From: Bacillota bacterium | Lineage (GTDB): Bacteria; Bacillota; DTU030; DUMP01 | NCBI GenBank assembly: GCA_030154105.1 | Contig: JASKKP010000001.1 | Location: 145,967-209,966, forward strand | Direction: 5' to 3' | DNA: 64,000 bases | In this document: positions 6,992 through 15,989 of the stretch, piece by piece | Layout: each line of letters opens with the position of its first letter | Position numbering within the stretch: position 1 is the first letter of the stretch | Position numbers and translations under genes: made by a program | Notes under the pieces: generated by a model | What the model was told of the DNA's origin: nothing | Databases searched by the model: none | What the model saw: the letters and a program-made list of their open reading frames with translations, nothing else

Positions 6992-7169
6992 GTTTCCAGG
7001 CAGCGGATCACCATACAGTCTAAAATTGCCACATTAATGCTGTCACAAAATAGTCTGCCGTCGGCAATAAACCGTGCTAGAATGAAGGGCGAAAAGGAAC
7101 TTAAAAGACGCGAAAAAGAAAAAGCGATTTTATTCCAGACCAGATTTGCCACATTGGGGAGTGGCGGCT

Positions 7170-9239
7170 TTGAGCCTGAACTGGAGACAACGAAGGCTGG
7201 CCCAAGTACTGTTGACATCCTGCAAACGTTGGACCATTGCTGAGTTGGCCGACCGGCTTCAGGTTAGCCCGCGAACGGTCCGCTACGACCTGGATGCTTT
7301 AACGACTTGGCTTAAAGCCCGAAGCGTCAACCTTTTGCGCAAGCCGAAACGGGGGGTATGGCTAGAAGGCGACCCTTGCGCGTTGTCTGCGCTGCAATAT
7401 GAATTAGGGCCGGCAGTTTCCTATGATTGCTCTTTGTCGCCCAAAGAAAGAGAACAACTACTCGTTGCCTGGCTTTTGCGGTCCGACCAGCCTCTGACGG
7501 CGGAGGACCTTGCAGAGAAGCTTATGGTCAGCCGGGCGACGGTTCTATCCGACCTTCGCCGCGCGGGGAGCTGGCTTGCCGGCCGAGGTATTGCCTTGCG
7601 AGGAAAACCCAACGTGGGTTACTGGTTGGCGTGCGCAGAAAAGGACTGGCGTCGTGCAGTTTGTGATCTTCTCGCCGAATCGGCAGGAGAAGAGCATCTG
7701 ATTCGTTACCTGGCAGATATCGGCGCCGGCGGCGGGCAATGGAGACGGCCAGGTCCGGACGGGGTTATTGCCCACGTTCTTGGCTTGTTTCGGGAAGTGG
7801 ATTTGGCCGGGCTTGAAGCAATTGTAACCGAAGTATGCCGGCGCCACGGGCTGGCCCTAAATGACAGCTCAACTGTTGGCCTGGTGGTTCATCTGGCCCT
7901 GGCCGTTACACGTTTGAAGCAAAACAAAGACATAGTTATGCCCCGGTCGGATTTGGAGGAAATAAAGAAGGCTCCTGAGTTTCGAGTGGCTGAAGAAGTG
8001 GCCCGAGCGGTATCCAAAGCCTACGGGTTGGAACTGCCGCCGGCCGAGATCGGCTACATCAGTTTGCACCTTGTGGGCGCGAAATTGCGGTCGCGCCGGA
8101 AAGAAACTTTATGGCAGGCAGATAAGATTAAGGCTCTGGCTACCGAGTTTATACGCCGGGCCGAGACTATGCTGGGAGTGGAACTTTCAAGCGATACCCA
8201 GCTCTTGGACGGGCTGACAATACATCTGGAACCTGTGCAAAGCCGGGTGAAATTTGGGCTGCCGTTTCGCAACCCGATCCTCGATGAAATCAAACAGAAG
8301 TTATCCTTCCTGTTTTTCGTGGCTAAGCAGGCGTCAAAGGTGTTTACGGAAGCCTGGGGCAATGAGCTCCCGGAAGAGGAGATCGGCTACCTCGCCCTGC
8401 ATTTAGGAGCGGCAATGGAACGCCTCAAGCTCAAGTATCGGTCGCAGCCAAGAGCGCTCGTGGTGTGCAGCAGTGGCGTGGGCACCTCGCAGCTTATAGC
8501 CAGTATTTTGGAAAGCGAAATACCAGAGATCCAGATCGTAGGTTTCAGCTCGGCGTTTTCTTTGGCCCAGCAGATAGCCGATCTCCATCCGGACTTAATT
8601 CTTTCAACTGTTCCTCTTAAGAATTGCGGAGTTCAAACCGTCATCCTATCCAGCATACCGACGGCTGAAGAGATCCAGGAACTCAGGACGGCCCTTGGTT
8701 TCGGTTTCAAGGAGAAGAAAGTGGGCGAGGGAAAAGCGGCAAAGAAAAAAAGCGGCTTGTTATCCAGAGGGGGAGAACCGGTGCTTTCAGATGTGTTGGT
8801 TGCAGAAACCGTACTCCTAGATGCAGAAGCCAAAGATTGGCGCGAGGCCGTTTTCCTGGCGGGAAGCCTGCTGGTCAAAAGCGGCGCCGTAGAAGAGCGT
8901 TTCGTAGACAGCATGATTCGGGCCGTCCAAGAATTGGGACCGTACATTGTGATAGCGCCCGGCATTGCGATGCCGCACGCCCGGCCGGAGGACGGAGCGC
9001 GCAAGGTCGGGCTTAGTCTGGTGCGGCTCAAGAGCCCGGTTAGCTTTGGTAACCCGGCCAACGATCCCGTCGATTTGATCATCGGCTTGAGCGCGGTCGA
9101 CAGCGACTCCCATCTCAAGCTTTTGGCACAGCTTTCCAAACTGCTCAATAACCAAGATTACCTTAGAATCATCCGCGAAACAGGCAGCAAAGAAGGTGTT
9201 CTGGCGCTGATTAACCGTGTTTGTGAGGACGAAGAATGA
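7170..9239 (+). CDS. PRD-containing BglG/LicR-type transcriptional regulator with EIIB and EIIA domains
   Basis: This is a regulator of about 689 residues for the adjacent PTS cluster. Two N-terminal HTH domains (WTIAELADRLQVSPRTVRYD and LTAEDLAEKLMVSRATVLSD) show it is a DNA-binding activator rather than an RNA antiterminator. Two PRD domains follow (EIGYISLHLVGAKL and EEIGYLALHLGAA). Next come a GatB-like EIIB domain (VVCSSGVGTSQLI) and a C-terminal EIIA of the fructose/mannitol type, with the phosphorylatable histidine in GIAMPHARPED. Start choice is uncertain: TTG 7170 lies about 8 bases after GGGGAG, while GTG 7161 and TTG 7146 are in frame upstream. It overlaps agaS by 23 bases. No separate EIIA gene exists in the cluster. 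Confidence 0.88.
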   Translation: MSLNWRQRRLAQVLLTSCKRWTIAELADRLQVSPRTVRYDLDALTTWLKARSVNLLRKPKRGVWLEGDPCALSALQYELGPAVSYDCSLSPKEREQLLVAWLLRSDQPLTAEDLAEKLMVSRATVLSDLRRAGSWLAGRGIALRGKPNVGYWLACAEKDWRRAVCDLLAESAGEEHLIRYLADIGAGGGQWRRPGPDGVIAHVLGLFREVDLAGLEAIVTEVCRRHGLALNDSSTVGLVVHLALAVTRLKQNKDIVMPRSDLEEIKKAPEFRVAEEVARAVSKAYGLELPPAEIGYISLHLVGAKLRSRRKETLWQADKIKALATEFIRRAETMLGVELSSDTQLLDGLTIHLEPVQSRVKFGLPFRNPILDEIKQKLSFLFFVAKQASKVFTEAWGNELPEEEIGYLALHLGAAMERLKLKYRSQPRALVVCSSGVGTSQLIASILESEIPEIQIVGFSSAFSLAQQIADLHPDLILSTVPLKNCGVQTVILSSIPTAEEIQELRTALGFGFKEKKVGEGKAAKKKSGLLSRGGEPVLSDVLVAETVLLDAEAKDWREAVFLAGSLLVKSGAVEERFVDSMIRAVQELGPYIVIAPGIAMPHARPEDGARKVGLSLVRLKSPVSFGNPANDPVDLIIGLSAVDSDSHLKLLAQLSKLLNNQDYLRIIRETGSKEGVLALINRVCEDEE

Positions 9240-10308
9240 ACTTCAGGAAAGGATGTTTGCTGTGGCGCAATTGGTTGGCGAGAAAACCCGCAAAGAAATC
9301 ATGGACCAGCCGGTAACTTGGAGGAGCATCATCGGGCGGCTGGAGGGGGATCTGGGTAGTGCTGCAGACTGGCTGCAGAAAAGGGCACCGGAAACCATCG
9401 TGCTCACCGGTTGCGGAAGCTCTTATTATCTCTCCCTGGCCGCCGCGGCAGCCCTGCGTGGCATGGCCGGGCAGCCGGCTCAAGGAGTTCCCGCCTCGGA
9501 GGTTTTCCTGCACCCGGAGACTACCCTGCCGGTGACCGGGCGACCGCTCGTCATCGGTGTTTCCCGGTCCGGGGAGAGCAGCGAGACGGTAATGGCGCTT
9601 TCGTATGTAAGGGGTAAGCGGCTTGGAACAACCGCCGCGCTCTCCTGCCATCCTGAAAGCAGCCTTACCCACGAGGCAGATACGGCTTGGTTGCTTCCCG
9701 AAGCTCAAGAAGAAAGCGTGGTGATGACCAAGTCGTTTTCCGGCATGCTGCTATTTTTCGACTTGCTGGCGGCCGCCCTTGGAAGACAAAAGGCCATTTT
9801 AGACGAACTGGCGTCCCTTCCTCTCCTCGCCGAGCAACTCATAGCTCGCTATGAGCAAATGGTCGTTGCTTTGGCTTCCGGCCGCACGATTAAGCGCTTT
9901 GTTTTTCTGGGGTCGGGCCCTTTCTACGGCTTAGCTTTGGAAGGAATGTTAAAGGTTAAAGAACAGGCCATTGCTTGGTCGGAGGCCTACCACTTCCTTG
10001 AGGTACGCCACGGCCCCAAATCGATTGTTGATGAAGAGACCTTGGTAGTGGCCTTTGTTTCACCGCATGCTTGGCGTTTTGAGGCTGGCGTCTTGGAAGA
10101 ACTGCAGGGCTATGGGGCGAAAGTGCTGACCCTTGGAGCGGACGATGAGGGCGGCGAATGGAATGTTGCTCTACCGAGAGGTCTGAGTCCCTTTAGCCGC
10201 GGTTTGGCGGTGATGCCGCTTGTGCAGTTGCTCGGCTACCACCACTCTATGGCGAAGGGGCTTAACCCCGATATGCCGCAGCATTTAACCCAAGTTGTCA
10301 AGCTATAA
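9217..10308 (+). CDS. agaS: AgaS-type SIS-domain sugar-phosphate isomerase/deaminase
   Basis: This protein of about 363 residues has two SIS domains. The first holds LTGCGSSYYLSLAAAAALRG and GVSRSGESSETV; the second holds FLGSGPFYGLALEGMLKVKE and EVRHGPKS. AgaS enzymes convert galactosamine-6-phosphate to tagatose-6-phosphate with release of ammonia. That fits its place with NagA, a PfkB kinase and an aldolase. No NagB-type deaminase is present, so AgaS probably does the deamination. Start is uncertain: GTG 9217 overlaps the regulator, and ATG 9253 would shorten the protein by 12 residues. A glucosamine-type substrate cannot be excluded. Confidence 0.85.
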   Translation: MFVRTKNELQERMFAVAQLVGEKTRKEIMDQPVTWRSIIGRLEGDLGSAADWLQKRAPETIVLTGCGSSYYLSLAAAAALRGMAGQPAQGVPASEVFLHPETTLPVTGRPLVIGVSRSGESSETVMALSYVRGKRLGTTAALSCHPESSLTHEADTAWLLPEAQEESVVMTKSFSGMLLFFDLLAAALGRQKAILDELASLPLLAEQLIARYEQMVVALASGRTIKRFVFLGSGPFYGLALEGMLKVKEQAIAWSEAYHFLEVRHGPKSIVDEETLVVAFVSPHAWRFEAGVLEELQGYGAKVLTLGADDEGGEWNVALPRGLSPFSRGLAVMPLVQLLGYHHSMAKGLNPDMPQHLTQVVKL

Positions 10309-10329
10309 CAGGGGGAAAGGGGGTGGAGC

Positions 10330-10599
10330 ATGAGAATAGTCACAGTGTGCGGTATGGGCTTTGGTACGAGCTTGATGCTGAAGATGACCATCGACGACAT
10401 TCTGAAGGAAGAGGGGATAAAGGCCAGCACGGAAGCCTGTGATGTTGGTTCGGCAAAAAGTAGGCAGGCAGACCTTGTCGTGGCTTCGACGGACATCGGC
10501 AAACACCTGCTGACCAGTTTCCGCAAAGTGGTGCTTATCAATAATTTAACTGATAAAAACGAGATTCGCGCAAAGCTCTTGGCCGAATTGCCCAAATAG
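10330..10599 (+). CDS. PTS EIIB component, ascorbate/galactitol (SgaB/GatB) type
   Basis: This 89-residue cytoplasmic phosphocarrier has the EIIB signature VCGMGFGTSLMLKM, with phosphorylatable Cys7. It is of the lactose/galactitol/ascorbate fold and is paired with the UlaA-type EIIC encoded 18 bases downstream. It should take phosphate from an EIIA and pass it to the incoming sugar. The only EIIA seen nearby is fused to the PRD regulator. ATG follows AAAGGGGGTGGAGC. Confidence 0.92.
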   Translation: MRIVTVCGMGFGTSLMLKMTIDDILKEEGIKASTEACDVGSAKSRQADLVVASTDIGKHLLTSFRKVVLINNLTDKNEIRAKLLAELPK

Positions 10600-10617
10600 C
10601 AAGAAGGGGGGATTTGG

Positions 10618-11886
10618 GTGGTTAAAGCGCTGGTGGAAATATTTACGACCCCGGCCATAATGCTCGGCATTGTGGCCCTGATTGGCCTCCTCCTCCAAGG
10701 GAAGTCTACTTCCGAATGCATAAGTGGAACGTTCAAGACGATACTGGGGGTGCTCATCCTAAGCAGCGGGGCGGGTGTTATCGTACAATCCCTTGGGCCT
10801 TTTAGCGACCTTTTCACCAAGGCCTTCAATCTTACCGGGGTCGTGCCGTTCGATGAAGCGGTAACGGGGGCCGTCATTCAAAAGATTGCCGTGGTGGCCA
10901 AGACGTCTTCGCTAATCATTGCCTTCGGGTTCGTTGTTAACCTTGTCCTGGCCCGGCTGACCCCTTTCAAGTATATCTTCCTTACCGGTCATATGATCTG
11001 GATTCTGGCCGGGTTCCTGGCCTTTGCCCTCTACGACCTTGGCCTTTCGGAAACTAACATTGTGGTGGTCGGCTCCTTGGTACAGGGCGCAGTCTTAACG
11101 CTGCTACCGGCCATTGCCCAACCGATCATGCGGCAGGTCACCGGGTCGAACGAGTTCGGCTACGGGCACCTTACTACGCTGGGCGTAGTGGCCGGGGCGT
11201 TGGTAGGCAAAATGGTGGGCAACCCCAGCGAGAGCAGTGAAGATTTGAAAGTGCCGCAAAGCCTTGAGTTTTTTAGAGACACCGCGATCTCCATTTCCGT
11301 CGTCATGCTCGTCATATACCTGGTGACCGTTCTCGTCGCCGGTCCGGCAGCCGTGGCCAAGGTATCCCAAGGGCAGTCGCCGGTCACTTACGCCGTCGTT
11401 CAAGCGCTGACCTTCACGGCGGGAGTGCTTATCCTCCTCCAGGGCGTAAGAATGTTCTTGGGCGAGATCATCCCTTCATTCCGGGGTATTGCGCTCAAAG
11501 TTGTCCCTGGGGCAATTCCTGCTCTAGACTGCCCGGTGGTTTTTCCCTATGCTCCTACGGCATTGATGCTCGGGTTTGTCAGTTCAGTAATCGGTATGAT
11601 CGTCGGCATGTTGGTATCTCGGCTATTTGGGACCGTAATACCGCTTCCTTCAATCATCGGTGGTTTTTTTACCGGCGGAACCTCAGGCATTTTTGGCAAT
11701 GCGGTGGGAGGAAGGCGAGGGGCGATAGTCGCCGGCTTCGTTTACGGCTTAATTCTCACCATCCCGGTAGCGCTCTTTTATCCCCTCTATGATCTTCCCA
11801 AGTACGGGATTACCGGCGTGGCCATGCTCGTGCCCGATGGATTGGCGGTTTTAGCAATTATTAAAGCCGTCGCCAGTATCTTCTAG
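10618..11886 (+). CDS. PTS EIIC permease, UlaA/SgaT (ascorbate) family
   Basis: This 422-residue, very hydrophobic protein has about ten predicted membrane segments. It matches the UlaA family, with an N-terminal IFTTPAIMLGIVALIGLLLQ, an internal TSECISGTFKTILGVLILSSGAG and a C-terminal region rich in GGFFTGGTSGIFGNAVGG. The best-known member transports L-ascorbate. Here the enzymes around it point to an amino sugar, so the substrate is more likely an N-acetylhexosamine; this is inference. The GTG start follows AAGGGGGG. No ascorbate-degradation genes (UlaD/E/F/G) are present. Confidence 0.9.
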   Translation: MVKALVEIFTTPAIMLGIVALIGLLLQGKSTSECISGTFKTILGVLILSSGAGVIVQSLGPFSDLFTKAFNLTGVVPFDEAVTGAVIQKIAVVAKTSSLIIAFGFVVNLVLARLTPFKYIFLTGHMIWILAGFLAFALYDLGLSETNIVVVGSLVQGAVLTLLPAIAQPIMRQVTGSNEFGYGHLTTLGVVAGALVGKMVGNPSESSEDLKVPQSLEFFRDTAISISVVMLVIYLVTVLVAGPAAVAKVSQGQSPVTYAVVQALTFTAGVLILLQGVRMFLGEIIPSFRGIALKVVPGAIPALDCPVVFPYAPTALMLGFVSSVIGMIVGMLVSRLFGTVIPLPSIIGGFFTGGTSGIFGNAVGGRRGAIVAGFVYGLILTIPVALFYPLYDLPKYGITGVAMLVPDGLAVLAIIKAVASIF

Positions 11887-11901
11887 CTCAGCTGAAGAAA
11901 G

Positions 11902-11927
11902 GGGGAAACTGGCTTACCAGTTTCCCC
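11902..11927 (+). other. Perfect 11-bp hairpin in the PTS operon
   Basis: GGGGAAACTGG pairs with CCAGTTTCCCC around a CTTA loop, 15 bases after the EIIC stop. No T-run follows, so it is more likely an mRNA stability or processing element, or a weak attenuator, than a full terminator. Confidence 0.6.
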
Positions 11928-11958
11928 TGCAACATCTATGAGGGGGCGATGTAAACCC

Positions 11959-12693
11959 ATGAAGGGCAAAGAGTATCTAGAGAAGGTCGAAGAGATACTG
12001 AAGAAGGTCAAGGAAACCCAGCTTAAAGCCATCGGGCAGGCGGCCGAGCTTGTAGCCGATACCATCGCCGGCGGGGGACTACTTCATGTTTTCGGCTGTG
12101 GCCATTCGCAAATGTATGCCGAAGAACTCTTTTACCGCGCCGGCGGTCTGGTACCGGTGAACGCCATCTTAGAACCGGCCCTTTCCCTTCGGCCGGAGGC
12201 GCCCAAAAGCACTTGGTTTGAGCGCTGTCCAGAATACGGGAAAGAAATCATGAGGAATGAACCCGTCCGGCCCGGCGATACGCTCATCATAGCTTCCACT
12301 TCGGGGAGAAACGCCGTACCCATCGATGCCGCCCTGCAGGCCAAAGAAATGGGCTTAAAAGTGATTGCGCTGACTTCCATGGCCTTTACGCGAAGCGTAA
12401 AGTCCCGCCACGCAAGCGGCAAATTACTGTACGAACTCGCGGACGTTGTGCTGGATAACTGCGGTATTGAGGGTGATGCCGTAGTGGAGTTTGATGGCCT
12501 GCCGTTTAAGGCCGGGCCGACCTCAACGGTAAGCGGCTGCGCGATCCTTCAGGCGGTGGTCGTCGAAGCCATAGAAAAACTATTGGCCAGAGGAATAACG
12601 CCGCCGGTGTGGGTCAGCTCCAATCTTGACCAGGGCGATCAAATCAATGCTCGCTATATTAAGGAGTACAGAGGAAGGGTGAAGTGCCTGTAG
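11959..12693 (+). CDS. SIS-domain protein, UPF0309 family
   Basis: This 244-residue cytoplasmic protein has one SIS domain of the UPF0309 type: FGCGHSQMYAEELFYRAGGL, IIASTSGRNAVPIDAAL and GPTSTVSGCAILQAVVVEA. The family is commonly encoded in PTS and amino-sugar clusters but has no firm activity. A sugar-phosphate isomerase or binding role is likely. ATG 11959 lies about 10 bases after AGGGGGCG; ATG 11938 would add seven residues with no better site. It follows the EIIC gene and abuts nagA with one base between stop and start, so it is part of the operon. Confidence 0.82.
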   Translation: MKGKEYLEKVEEILKKVKETQLKAIGQAAELVADTIAGGGLLHVFGCGHSQMYAEELFYRAGGLVPVNAILEPALSLRPEAPKSTWFERCPEYGKEIMRNEPVRPGDTLIIASTSGRNAVPIDAALQAKEMGLKVIALTSMAFTRSVKSRHASGKLLYELADVVLDNCGIEGDAVVEFDGLPFKAGPTSTVSGCAILQAVVVEAIEKLLARGITPPVWVSSNLDQGDQINARYIKEYRGRVKCL

Positions 12694-12694
12694 A

Positions 12695-13891
12695 ATGCGC
12701 CAAACTGAAAGCGGGGCCGTAGTTGTTCTAACCAACGGACGTGTGGTTACACCTTTTGTGGAAATAGAATCCGGGACCGTGGTCATCAGCGGAGAAAAGA
12801 TCGTTGAGGTAAAACCTTCTCGCCCTGGCAGCCTCCCGCCCAATGCCCGCGTCATTGACCTCGGTGGGCTGACAGTGGTTCCTGGTTTTATCGACGTGCA
12901 CATCCATGGCGCCCATGGGGCGGACGCGCTGGACGCCACGGCCGAGGCTATTCTAACCATGGCGCGCTTTTTGGCCCAAAATGGGACCACGGCGTTTGTG
13001 CCGACCACGGCCAGCGCCGGCTGGGAGCAGCTGGCAAACGTTGCGGCTGCAGCGGCGGAGGTTAAGAAGCTCGGAGCTAGGGGGGCGGAGGTTTTAGGGT
13101 TACACCTCGAAGGCCCCTTTTTAAACCCTGAGCGTTTGGGCGCGCAAAACCCGGCGGCCGTCCAGGATGTGGACTTGGGACGGGTGGCGACGTTCTTGGA
13201 GCATTTTCCCGGTCTGGTGCGGATTATCACCCTCGCTCCTGAACTTCCAGGGGCGCTGGGCCTCATAAGGTACCTGCGGCAACAAGGGGTCGTTGCCGCG
13301 GCGGGACACACCAATGCAGATTTCGACACCATGAACGCGGCGTTCCAGGCCGGGCTCACCCATGCAGTTCATCTTTTTAACGGCATGGCCCAGCTGCACC
13401 ACCGTGAGCCCGGGCCGGTGGGAGCGATTCTTACTACGCCGGGGGTCAGCTGTGAAGTGATCTGTGACGGACATCATCTTCACCCGGCAGCGGTAAGGCT
13501 GGCGGCGTTTCTCAAAGCTCCTTCCGATCTCATCCTTGCCACAGATGCCATGCGGGCAACTGGCCTGCCTGACGGGGAGTACGACCTGGGCGGGCTAAGC
13601 GTCCGCGTTGCGGGGGGCGTGGCAAGATTGCCGGCGGGCTCCCTGGCCGGGAGCACGCTTACCCTGGCGGAGGCGGTAAGGAACGCTGCCGCATTTACCG
13701 GTTTTCCGCTGGCCGAGGTCGTCCGGTGGGCGACGGCCAACCCTGCTCGGCTGCTAAAAATAAGCGACCGCAAAGGGCATATCGCCCCGGGAAAAGATGC
13801 GGACATTGTGGCGCTGGATTCCGACTTCAATGTGGTGCTCACGCTGGTTAGAGGAAAAGTGGTTTGGGATGCGCGGGGGAGACACCAGTAG
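12695..13891 (+). CDS. nagA: N-acetylhexosamine-6-phosphate deacetylase
   Basis: NagA removes acetate from GlcNAc-6-phosphate or GalNAc-6-phosphate. The 398-residue amidohydrolase-fold protein shows PGFIDVHIHGAHGAD (metal-binding HxH), HLEGPFLNP (catalytic-site Glu), AAGHTNADF, HLFNGMAQLHHREPG and LATDAMRATG (catalytic Asp). All key residues appear present. Given AgaS downstream in the route, the GalNAc variant (AgaA) is possible; sequence alone does not separate them. Start ATG 12695 is one base after the preceding stop. Confidence 0.93.
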   Translation: MRQTESGAVVVLTNGRVVTPFVEIESGTVVISGEKIVEVKPSRPGSLPPNARVIDLGGLTVVPGFIDVHIHGAHGADALDATAEAILTMARFLAQNGTTAFVPTTASAGWEQLANVAAAAAEVKKLGARGAEVLGLHLEGPFLNPERLGAQNPAAVQDVDLGRVATFLEHFPGLVRIITLAPELPGALGLIRYLRQQGVVAAAGHTNADFDTMNAAFQAGLTHAVHLFNGMAQLHHREPGPVGAILTTPGVSCEVICDGHHLHPAAVRLAAFLKAPSDLILATDAMRATGLPDGEYDLGGLSVRVAGGVARLPAGSLAGSTLTLAEAVRNAAAFTGFPLAEVVRWATANPARLLKISDRKGHIAPGKDADIVALDSDFNVVLTLVRGKVVWDARGRHQ

Positions 13892-13910
13892 GGCAGAGGA
13901 GGCTTATTCT

Positions 13911-14183
13911 TTGGTACAAATTGTGGTCACGATAAAAAACCCCACGGGTTTACATGCACGACCGGCGGCAGCCTTCGTCCAAGCCGCGGAGCGTTTCAAA
14001 GCCGATATTTGGATAGAGAAAGAAGGGCGTAGGGTCAACGCCAAGAGCATTTTGTCGGTGATGTCGCTCGGTGCAAAACAGGGAACCACTTTAGAGATAG
14101 TGGCGGACGGCGAAGACGAGGATATGGCCGTAGCTACCTTAAGAGACCTTATCGATGGCGGGTTGGGGGAAATTGCCGGATGA
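13911..14183 (+). CDS. ptsH: Phosphocarrier protein HPr
   Basis: HPr relays phosphate from Enzyme I to EIIA proteins. With TTG 13911 as start, which has AGAGGAGG 8 bases upstream, the protein is 90 residues. The active histidine is then exactly His15 (GLHARPA) and the HPr-kinase site is Ser46 (NAKSILSVMSLGA), the canonical numbering. His15 excludes Crh, and Ser46 implies carbon-catabolite control through HPr kinase. No Enzyme I gene is in this window. The stop overlaps the kinase start by four bases (ATGA). Confidence 0.95.
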   Translation: MVQIVVTIKNPTGLHARPAAAFVQAAERFKADIWIEKEGRRVNAKSILSVMSLGAKQGTTLEIVADGEDEDMAVATLRDLIDGGLGEIAG

Positions 14184-15112
14184 TCCTGTGCGTCACTTTG
14201 AACGCGGCCGTCGATAAGACCTACATTGTAGAAGGGTTCAGAGCGGGGGAAATTTTTCGGGTCAAGGAAGTGCAGGTTCTGCCTGGGGGCAAAGGGATCA
14301 ACGTAGCCCGGGCCATCCGGGTACTGGGCGGTGACGTGCTTGCTACCGGTTTCATCGGCGGCCATAACGGTGCCTTTATCGAAGAAAGACTGGCCGCGGA
14401 GGGTATCCCTTCAGACTTTGTGCAGATACCTGCCGAATCCCGGCTTACGGTCAGTATAATTGACCCGATCAATTCTTCTGAGACGGGGCTGTACGAGCAG
14501 GGTCCTGCCGTTTGTGCAGAAGATTGGGAAAGATTCAAGGAGCATTTTGCCGTTCTCCTGGAAAAGGCAGAAATAGCGATATTATCCGGAAGCCTTCCCC
14601 GCGGCTTGGCGGCGGACGCTTATGCAGAACTCATCGAAATGGCCAGAGGCACGGGGTGTTCCGTAATCCTGGATACGAGCGGGGAAGCACTAAAAACTGG
14701 TTTGGCGGCGCATCCGTGGCTGATAAAGCCGAACCGTTCCGAAGCAGAAGGGCTCCTTGAACGTCCGCTTGAAGGGGTATCGGCAGTGGTGGAGGGCATA
14801 AAGAAGCTTCTGGCCGACGGCCAAGAGGCCGTGGCGATATCGCTTGGTAAAGATGGGGTCATCGGTGGGTGTGGGTACGGCATTTGGCGTGTCCGGGCAC
14901 CGCAGGTGCATGCTGCCAGCAGTGTGGGCGCAGGTGACGCGTTCGTGGCCGGGTTTACCTTAGCGTGGTTAAGGAAGGGCGACTTTGCCGAAGCTCTCCG
15001 CTACGGGACGGCCTGCGCTGCTGCCAGCGTTACTAGAGTGGGGGCGGGCATGTTGTCGCCCTCGGATGTGGAGTATTTGAGCAGGACGATAAAGGCTGAA
15101 AAAATTACTTAA
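14180..15112 (+). CDS. PfkB-family sugar-phosphate kinase (tagatose-6-phosphate / fructose-1-phosphate kinase type)
   Basis: This 310-residue ribokinase-fold enzyme shows TLNAAVDKTY at the start, the PGGKGINVARAIRVLGG signature, and the catalytic SSVGAGDAFVAGF anion-hole motif near residue 250. LacC (tagatose-6-P kinase) and FruK (fructose-1-P kinase) share this sequence type. The gene order AgaS, kinase, aldolase supports tagatose-6-phosphate as substrate. No fructose EII gene lies alongside, which argues against FruK. It is translationally coupled to HPr. Confidence 0.85.
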   Translation: MILCVTLNAAVDKTYIVEGFRAGEIFRVKEVQVLPGGKGINVARAIRVLGGDVLATGFIGGHNGAFIEERLAAEGIPSDFVQIPAESRLTVSIIDPINSSETGLYEQGPAVCAEDWERFKEHFAVLLEKAEIAILSGSLPRGLAADAYAELIEMARGTGCSVILDTSGEALKTGLAAHPWLIKPNRSEAEGLLERPLEGVSAVVEGIKKLLADGQEAVAISLGKDGVIGGCGYGIWRVRAPQVHAASSVGAGDAFVAGFTLAWLRKGDFAEALRYGTACAAASVTRVGAGMLSPSDVEYLSRTIKAEKIT

Positions 15113-15140
15113 TTCTCTTTTGCTGAGAGGAGTATCCGGC

Positions 15141-15989
15141 ATGAGGGAGAACGCGAGCTCTATCCTGCAAGATGCCCGGCAGGGCGGATACGCGGTTGGG
15201 GCGTTCAATATACACAATCTGGAAACGTTTCGGGCGGTGGTCGACGCCTCAGCGGAAATGGGCAGGCCGGTTTACGTCCAAACGACGCCGGGCACGGTAC
15301 GCTTCATCGGCGCGGGGTACCTAGTTGCCCTGGCCAGGGAGGCGGCGAAGCAGGTGCCGGTTCCCGTCATATTACACCTGGACCACGGGAACAGCCTCGA
15401 AATAGTGCAAGAGTGCTTGGAGGCAGGCTACCCTTCGGTGATGATCGATGGCTCCAGGCTGCCTTACGACGAAAACGTGGCTTTGGTGCGTCAGGTTGTC
15501 GCCCTGGCCCGGAAATACGGGGCTGCGGTGGAGGCGGAACTAGGGGAGGTGGGCGGCGCGGAAGAACAAGAGATGGCCAAAAGCGGAACCGGCCGCCTCA
15601 CCGATCCTTTACAGGCGCAGAGATTTGTGGCCGAAACGGGAGTGGACAGCCTGGCCGTAGCGATCGGCACGGCACACGGGGTTTACACGGCTGAACCGGA
15701 GCTGGATCTGGAACGCCTTTCTTTAATCAGGTCTTTGGTTGGCGTTCCTTTGGTCCTCCACGGCGCCTCTGGGGTACCCGATACTAAGCTGCGGGAGGCC
15801 ATTCGCCGGGGCATTTCAAAGGTGAACATTGCCACGGACCTGAAACTTACCTGGGCCCGAGAGCTCAGGCGGTCTTTGACCGTCCAACCGGGCGAAACCG
15901 ACCCGCGAAACGTGCTAAGGCCGGTAATAGACGCTTTGAAGCGAGCGGTGCGGGAAAAGATTGCCTTATTCAGCGGCGAGCCCAACTGA
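15141..15989 (+). CDS. Class II fructose/tagatose-bisphosphate aldolase
   Basis: This 282-residue zinc aldolase cleaves a ketohexose 1,6-bisphosphate to DHAP and glyceraldehyde-3-phosphate. Visible residues are the catalytic Asp and zinc His in ILHLDHGNSLE, the zinc ligands in AIGTAHGVY and LVLHGASGVPD, and the phosphate-binding NIATDLK. Length and motifs suit GatY/KbaY-type tagatose-bisphosphate aldolase as well as short FbaA; context favours tagatose. ATG 15141 follows GAGAGGAG by about 9 bases. It is the last gene of the PTS operon. I saw no convincing terminator after it. Confidence 0.88.
   Translation: MRENASSILQDARQGGYAVGAFNIHNLETFRAVVDASAEMGRPVYVQTTPGTVRFIGAGYLVALAREAAKQVPVPVILHLDHGNSLEIVQECLEAGYPSVMIDGSRLPYDENVALVRQVVALARKYGAAVEAELGEVGGAEEQEMAKSGTGRLTDPLQAQRFVAETGVDSLAVAIGTAHGVYTAEPELDLERLSLIRSLVGVPLVLHGASGVPDTKLREAIRRGISKVNIATDLKLTWARELRRSLTVQPGETDPRNVLRPVIDALKRAVREKIALFSGEPN

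Follow-up and report, generated by a model that had tools for sequence, protein, structure and literature searches.

The subject of this analysis is a nine-gene operon on a 64,000-nucleotide stretch of a Bacillota bacterium genome (GTDB DTU030; DUMP01; assembly GCA_030154105.1, contig JASKKP010000001.1, forward-strand positions 145,967 to 209,966; hereafter the window), with special attention to its first gene, which encodes a phosphotransferase system (PTS) regulator ending in an EIIA domain. All nine genes lie on the + strand within positions 7170-15989 of the window, separated by short gaps or overlapping, and encode, in order, a PRD regulator, a SIS-domain deaminase, EIIB, a UlaA-type EIIC, a UPF0309 protein, NagA, HPr, a PfkB kinase and a class II aldolase. 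Profile matches recovered every gene named in the original prediction, in order and on the + strand, whereas its inventory had overlooked the HPr gene, the second SIS protein (UPF0309) and an in-frame start codon, GTG 8781, inside the regulator gene.

Gene content and regulator

The features are as follows, with profile scores in bits.

7026-7035, + strand: direct repeat TTGCCACATT, copy 1, candidate operator of the regulator
7146-7155, + strand: direct repeat TTGCCACATT, copy 2, overlapping the upstream TTG 7146
7170-9239, + strand: PRD activator, HTH2-PRD2-EIIB-EIIA, start TTG 7170 (Pfam/NCBIfam)
8769-8775, + strand: Shine-Dalgarno sequence GGGGGAG of the internal start, duplex -11.0 kcal/mol
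8781-9239, + strand: predicted free EIIA, 152 amino acids (aa), internal start GTG 8781-8783
9253-10308, + strand: SIS-domain hexosamine-6-phosphate deaminase/isomerase, GlmD/AgaS-like (model scores)
10330-10599, + strand: EIIB, SgaB/UlaB-like, Cys in VCGMGFGT (PF02302, 53 bits)
10618-11886, + strand: EIIC, UlaA family (PF03611, 382 bits, cut-off 24.2)
11959-12693, + strand: SIS_2 protein, UPF0309/PRK02947, NagS homologue (PRK02947, 325 bits)
12695-13891, + strand: NagA, N-acetylhexosamine-6-phosphate deacetylase (TIGR00221, 371 bits, cut-off 226)
13911-14183, + strand: HPr phosphocarrier, start TTG (PF00381, 116 bits; Shine-Dalgarno -11.9 kcal/mol)
14180-15112, + strand: PfkB-family hexose-phosphate kinase (TIGR03828, 307 bits, cut-off 292)
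15141-15989, + strand: class II ketose-bisphosphate aldolase, GatY/Fba type (PF01116, F_bP_aldolase, 324 bits)

The frame of the SIS deaminase is open from GTG 9217, ATG 9253 being the likelier start, and the EIIC match to PF03611 exceeds the cut-off across most of the protein's length, placing it in the UlaA / EIIC-GAT family. The regulator comprises two HTH domains, two PRDs, an EIIB-like domain with its Cys and a C-terminal EIIA_2 domain (PF00359, 106 bits); H249, H308, H360 and H419 of the PRDs, C441 of EIIB and H611 of EIIA (numbering from 7146) are invariant in the three regulators aligned, and the protein has the domains and phosphorylatable residues of an MtlR/LicR-type PRD activator. 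TTG 7170 is a likelier start for this gene than TTG 7146, since its Shine-Dalgarno sequence is stronger (-9.3 vs +0.2 kcal/mol) and copy 2 of the direct repeat overlaps TTG 7146. The two TTGCCACATT copies lie 120 bp apart, and in a congener (genome G001, operon L011) the pair is kept at 112 bp (positions 7138 and 7250), although the surrounding intergenic DNA aligns poorly; the repeats are a candidate operator of the PRD regulator.

A start codon at the edge of the EIIA domain

The EIIA domain begins at codon GTG 8781, five bases after GGGGGAG, a sequence whose pairing energy (-11.0 kcal/mol) lies among the values for the other starts of the operon. An in-frame start with a good Shine-Dalgarno sequence recurs at the equivalent place in other regulators. 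Where the regulator carries the only EIIA of the locus (fused-only), the codon at this column was a start codon in 35/35 regulators (ATG 26, GTG 9), compared with none of eight regulators having a neighbouring stand-alone EIIA (GAT, ACC, ACA, TCA). The same holds within three carrier genomes, where L106, the only UlaA-linked regulator lacking a stand-alone EIIA, has GTG and the other eight regulators have no start; L110, encoded in the genome of L106 and adjoining a stand-alone EIIA, has Ser at the column in an otherwise similar context.

The comparison was repeated on new data by searching 291 genomes of the class of genome G065 and 151 of the class of G066. Eighty regions were fetched, and the 59 regulators with a C-terminal EIIA were assigned by script to those with UlaA within 5 kb and no stand-alone EIIA, those with a stand-alone EIIA within 5 kb, and others. 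A start codon occupied the column in 22/22 of the first class (GTG 11, ATG 10, TTG 1; one near-duplicate, L224 of L049, is counted), in 0/32 of the second and in 0/5 of the remainder (Fisher p 1e-15, a value that ignores relatedness). In every set examined, the two classes were told apart by a start codon at the domain edge, with no exceptions.

All 20 valines found at the column in the fused-only classes (9 + 11) are encoded by GTG and the sole leucine by TTG, whereas the only valine among the 32 regulators with a stand-alone EIIA is GTT; because every valine is GTG and the only leucine TTG, the constraint appears to act on the RNA rather than on the residue. The median Shine-Dalgarno energy is -9.35 kcal/mol in fused-only regulators vs -2.9 where a stand-alone EIIA is present, and the motif is encoded by differing amino acids across lineages (RGGE, KEV, RGR, EED, RRG). 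Stand-alone EIIAs begin 52 residues before the GPY motif in 22/48 cases and within five residues of that point in 39/48; the internal starts lie alike, and UlaC of Escherichia coli starts 54 residues before GPY. Features expected of a gene with an internal start, an in-frame start codon and a Shine-Dalgarno sequence at a domain boundary, conserved beyond the need of the protein, were found.

The origin of the transporter's EIIA was examined at genome and locus level. By profile search, the source genome (a draft of 2.10 Mb in 48 contigs, 92.75% complete) encodes no EIIA_2 other than the regulator's, and neither does the congener G001 (same genus, a single contig, completeness given as 100) or genome G064. 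The expectation that no stand-alone EIIA would be found elsewhere in the genome was accordingly borne out for EIIA_2, the family covered by the genome-wide search. Among 86 loci with UlaA relatives (80 from one search, one from the congener and five others), the EIIA was regulator-fused only in 34, stand-alone only in 40, present in both forms in eight and absent from four. Two of these four (L036, L057) are truncated by contig ends, and two (L063, L072) are true exceptions, with a UlaA-type EIIC and EIIB and no EIIA in the fetched flanks; L051, counted as stand-alone only, has a second, EIIA-bearing regulator on the opposite strand (motif HASY) that lies outside the codon tally. A search of viral_contigs gave no permease relative. 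Four sister operons (L020, L021, L022, L040) also carry HPr and EI, amounting to a full phosphorelay per operon.

On the EIIC tree, fused and stand-alone EIIA replace each other across seven independent pairs, every decided one in the expected direction (mean 6.4 for, 0 against, p ~0.03). On the EIIA tree, a quick tree with 36/89 inner branches open, fused domains are intermingled with stand-alone ones in a pattern that partly follows the EIIC tree: in both, L019 (fused) groups with L023 (stand-alone), and L020 (fused) with the stand-alone L018, L024 and L031. Because the loci alternate and the two trees interleave alike, the regulator's EIIA is most likely, by descent, the transporter's EIIA. 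A mirror-tree comparison (excluding L012, L013 and L015) was of little use: in the 33 fused-only loci, the distances for EIIA, for the regulator and for EIIC are all correlated with one another; in the eight loci with both forms, the stand-alone EIIA tracks EIIC slightly better than the fused one.

Taken together, these observations make it probable that the regulator gene encodes two in-frame proteins, the PRD activator and a free EIIA from GTG 8781 that serves EIIB and the UlaA-type EIIC. One message with two ribosome-binding sites would yield the activator from TTG 7170 and the 152-aa EIIA from GTG 8781; we infer both the use of the internal start by ribosomes and the transport work of its product. 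The free EIIA, possibly in excess over the DNA-bound activator, would receive phosphate from HPr (the operon's own, with EI encoded elsewhere) and hand it to EIIB, and EIIC would import and phosphorylate an N-acetylhexosamine or a derivative. By analogy with known PRD regulators, the fused EIIA, the EIIB-like domain and the PRD histidines would let the activator read the phosphate flow of the same chain. Downstream, the probable order is the UPF0309 enzyme, deacetylation by NagA, deamination by the SIS protein, phosphorylation by PfkB and cleavage by the aldolase.

Several points weigh against a translated internal start. The column was first spotted in the initial data, leaving the second search as the test. 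Under synonymous recoding, the strength of the Shine-Dalgarno sequence in the window does not exceed what the encoded amino acids and the codon usage predict (p 0.32); across the fused-only genes, 8/35 gave p <0.05, with a combined p of 4e-9 that ignores relatedness. On a tree of the regulators' N-terminal parts (without L020, which has a broken frame, and L114), both traits change eight times each, and only four well-supported independent pairs remain; all four are as expected, giving p 0.125, and cannot reach 0.05. L117, being the same gene as L044, had been removed ahead of counting. The absence of another EIIA_2 rests on a draft genome, and L063 and L072 indicate that distant EIIA supply does happen.

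The original prediction placed EIIA only on the regulator, so that regulator and transporter phosphorylation might be physically one step, and a regulator EIIA acting alone was suggested for Streptococcus pneumoniae SP2129-30 (Bidossi 2012, PMC3302838). This reading, in which the full-length regulator phosphorylates EIIB and no free EIIA is made, agrees with the lack of another EIIA_2 in the genome and with the HARP motif at the active His, retained in 33/34 fused-only regulators vs 2/8 of those with a stand-alone EIIA; it leaves unexplained why a start codon and Shine-Dalgarno sequence mark the very point at which stand-alone EIIAs begin, and do so solely in operons that lack such an EIIA, and we regard it as improbable. 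The first half of the claim stands at the gene level, no separate EIIA_2 gene having been found; at the protein level, the conserved internal start predicts that a free EIIA is probably made too, which speaks against a single physical step. Still less probable is an unused codon, either left over from a gene fusion or present because the protein favours Met, Val or Leu there. Fusion with an adjacent EIIA gene would indeed leave that gene's start, and the interleaved tree fits repeated fusion; a relic would decay, however, whereas start and Shine-Dalgarno sequence persist in regulators down to 38% identity while the encoded residues change, and a protein preference would permit GTT, GTC or GTA.

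The EIIA of MtlR-type regulators is usually viewed as sensing only, and a sensing regulator combined with a transporter that borrows its EIIA from elsewhere would match L063 and L072, which lack a local EIIA. This arrangement is the least likely of the three for the window, given that no other EIIA_2 occurs in the source genome, the congener or G064, within the family searched. A DhaM candidate (L010, 8057-8452), of the EIIA-Man type as read by eye, is a member of a different family.

The source genome encodes one EIIC-GAT, one EIIA_2, one EI and three HPr domains, the EI gene adjoining DhaK, DhaL and a DhaM-like gene (all read by eye). Near this dhaKLM-HPr-EI cluster, on contig 18 of the source genome (G000), a 697-aa protein (L010, 3511-5604) has an N-terminal HPr domain followed by apparent PAS and sigma-54 activator domains, as read by eye, and is a possible PTS-linked enhancer-binding protein. 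In the congener, the operon has an identical gene order, and none of four genes that flank it in the window (guaA, purE, purB and a VanW-like gene) lies within ~7 kb upstream or 4 kb downstream of it there: the operon is one cassette in two genomic places. Protein identity between the two is 91% for EIIC, 89% for UPF0309 and 79% for HPr, and lower (70-77%) for the SIS deaminase, NagA, PfkB and aldolase. Identity along the regulator is highest in PRD2 (83%) and EIIA (81%) and lowest in the EIIB-EIIA linker (32%).

Permease substrate and sugar pathway

At the positions given as ascorbate contacts of E. coli UlaA in PMC6048161, the window EIIC carries the replacements T86D, Y87E, I136M, Q139I and Q195L and keeps H135, H194 and D314. 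Across the 26 aligned members of its clade, D86, E87, H135, M136, H194 and D314 are invariant and I139 is present in 25, so that a contact fingerprint DE-HM-I-H is fixed. No UlaG-, UlaD-, UlaE- or UlaF-type model (lactonase, decarboxylase, epimerases) matched any of the nine operon proteins, in line with the earlier remark that Ula enzymes are lacking here. L-ascorbate was rejected as substrate on the replaced contacts and the Ula enzymes not found in the operon, and is a very remote prospect even though EIIC, EIIB and EIIA all have their highest scores with models for ascorbate systems or for UlaA-type systems of unspecified substrate.

Because other UlaA clades carry other fixed contact sets, several non-ascorbate UlaA groups exist, judging by these residues. 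The suggestion of a new substrate class for the permease family is partly supported, by the clade's own fingerprint and its constant UPF0309 partner; UlaA relatives outside ascorbate operons are widespread, and non-ascorbate use is not itself new. In one further clade (L014, L038, L039, L041-L044, L047, L052, L053, L092), the contact set is D-N-H-M-S-F-W and the loci carry phosphotriesterase-related and creatininase genes.

UPF0309 occurs in 25/25 loci of the window's permease clade vs 2/61 other UlaA loci. The remaining partners in the 25 loci are the SIS deaminase (18), NagA (14), PfkB (12) and the aldolase (11), their absences being upper bounds, since contig ends truncate some of the loci and one query was used per gene. 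The nearest solved structures to the window protein are PDB 3cvj and NagS (9eol), a member of the same family. The essential NagS residues H53, R64, E94 and D179 and the important N228 are kept in the window protein and in 29/30 aligned rows (two L020 fragments left out), and NagS S91 is replaced by Thr in the window protein. According to PMC12680351, NagS of Streptomyces converts N-acetylglucosamine (GlcNAc)-6-phosphate into 6-phospho-chromogen I, and homologues from Clostridium, Paenibacillus and Acidothermus are inactive or nearly so on GlcNAc-6-phosphate. Because the NagS-essential residues are conserved, the UPF0309 protein likely performs NagS-like chemistry on another 2-acylamino sugar phosphate. 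UPF0309 is connected with amino-sugar ether chemistry by the UlaA/UPF0309 cluster L012 of genome G056, whose PRD regulator has MurQ, creatininase and phosphotriesterase-like genes for neighbours, together with a mannose-type PTS.

The tagatose-phosphate route proposed earlier is well supported in sister operons. L017 and L024 score 462 and 427 bits against AgaS (cut-off 529), 459 and 447 against GatY (cut-off 383) and 347 and 350 against LacC (cut-off 410), and L023 carries an AgaF EIIA (143 bits, cut-off 130). In the window itself the scores point to it less clearly: the deaminase is nearer to GlmD-type glucosamine-6-phosphate deaminase models (217 bits, cut-off 580) than to AgaS (129, cut-off 529), the kinase, 1-phosphofructokinase (1-PFK)-like, scores 203 against LacC (cut-off 410), and the aldolase is nearest to GatY at 347, below the cut-off of 383.

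The sister operons point to the galactosamine/tagatose (galacto) series, and we tentatively rank substrates related to N-acetylgalactosamine (GalNAc) first and those related to GlcNAc second, the boldest proposal being an N-acetylhexosamine that is modified or dehydrated. Plain GalNAc or galactosamine, degraded by AgaS, LacC and GatY, is the tentative favourite, the nearest sisters L017 and L024 scoring higher for these enzymes than the window and L023 adding the AgaF EIIA. The extra kinase and aldolase also suggest tagatose phosphates, given that an ordinary PFK is encoded in the source genome. This choice leaves UPF0309 without a role, although it is present in 25/25 clade loci and NagA in only 14, and has to accommodate a window deaminase and kinase resembling GlmD and 1-PFK. 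Plain GlcNAc or glucosamine is more doubtful. The NagA score above its cut-off, the deaminase nearest to GlmD and PH0510 and the lack of NagB in the source genome and the congener favour it; fructose-6-phosphate, however, needs no dedicated kinase and aldolase, and UPF0309 again stays unexplained.

There is a slim chance that the permease clade imports an amino sugar in enol or dehydrated form, for example chromogen I, with UPF0309 running NagS/MurQ chemistry in reverse and hydrating the 6-phosphate to yield an N-acetylhexosamine-6-phosphate for NagA. Chromogen I is a 2,3-unsaturated furanose shaped like ascorbate that arises from heated GlcNAc or GalNAc, and no PTS known to us takes up a dehydrated amino sugar. 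The idea draws on the permease family, the constant UPF0309 partner, the NagS residues and the distant homologues that do not dehydrate GlcNAc-6-phosphate.

A protein family of ~430-560 aa with a hydrophobic, signal-like N-terminus lies beside UlaA/UPF0309 operons in nine loci (L017 13192-14493, L018 5704-7086, L019 11473-12855, L024 4808-6175, L026 11449-12810, L028 11449-12810, L029 11396-12754, L031 11417-13096, and L089). Of five members scanned, four had no Pfam match and L031 only a FIMAH domain; the predicted structure (mean pLDDT 60) gave weak jelly-roll/lectin matches in Foldseek (best E 0.012). The family may represent an extracellular enzyme that releases the sugar.

Relation to known systems

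Inventories of the PTS go by the number of EIIA genes: a transporter that lacks one is labelled 'incomplete' or is taken to borrow its EIIA. Were ribosomes to initiate at the internal codon, one class of UlaA-type transporters, spread over Bacilli, Clostridia and deep-branching Bacillota, would be complete. Its EIIA would be encoded within a gene annotated as a regulator, and two ribosome-binding sites of a single message would determine how much sensor is made relative to transport protein. The missing EIIA, a few-copy regulator driving transport and a regulator EIIA kept fit for transport would become testable puzzles, and the start codon at the domain edge offers a sequence rule for finding such hidden proteins.

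The use of a regulator's EIIA to energise a UlaA-type PTS has already been suggested in print (2012); what is new is the prediction of a transporter subunit hidden in the regulator gene. No report of an internal start yielding a free EIIA was found in the open-licence papers searched, and the literature search returned no paper joining AgaS, NagA and 'PTS ascorbate transporter'. The closest precedent is S. pneumoniae SP2129-2131, where, as in the window, a UlaA-type EIIC and an EIIB lie downstream of a PRD regulator with EIIA and no EIIA gene is present; the downstream enzymes differ, hence another substrate, and the part of the description available (Bidossi 2012) proposes no internal start. 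The same layout occurs in L106, with transketolase halves downstream. Ribo-RET profiling of S. pneumoniae is reported to show peaks at internal starts in general (PMC9426450).

With E. coli UlaABC the operon shares the EIIB and EIIC families, and the UlaC N-terminus matches that of the hidden EIIA; UlaC, however, is a gene of its own, and the contact residues differ. E. coli UlaR is not known to be a PRD protein. The aga/gam operons for GalNAc resemble the window in AgaS, an NagA/AgaA-type deacetylase, tagatose-6-phosphate kinase and the GatY/KbaY logic, but use a mannose-family EII and are not known to carry UPF0309. The HTH-PRD-EIIB-EIIA architecture is that of MtlR/LicR-type regulators, which, unlike the window regulator, have no internal start when a stand-alone EIIA is nearby; L225, L226 and L228, inferred to be MtlR distant from mtlF, have none either. 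Phosphotransfer proteins made shorter from an internal start within a larger gene are known in ArcB-C and short CheA, which are not PTS proteins and in which the shorter product does not supply a component that a transporter lacks, as it would in the window.

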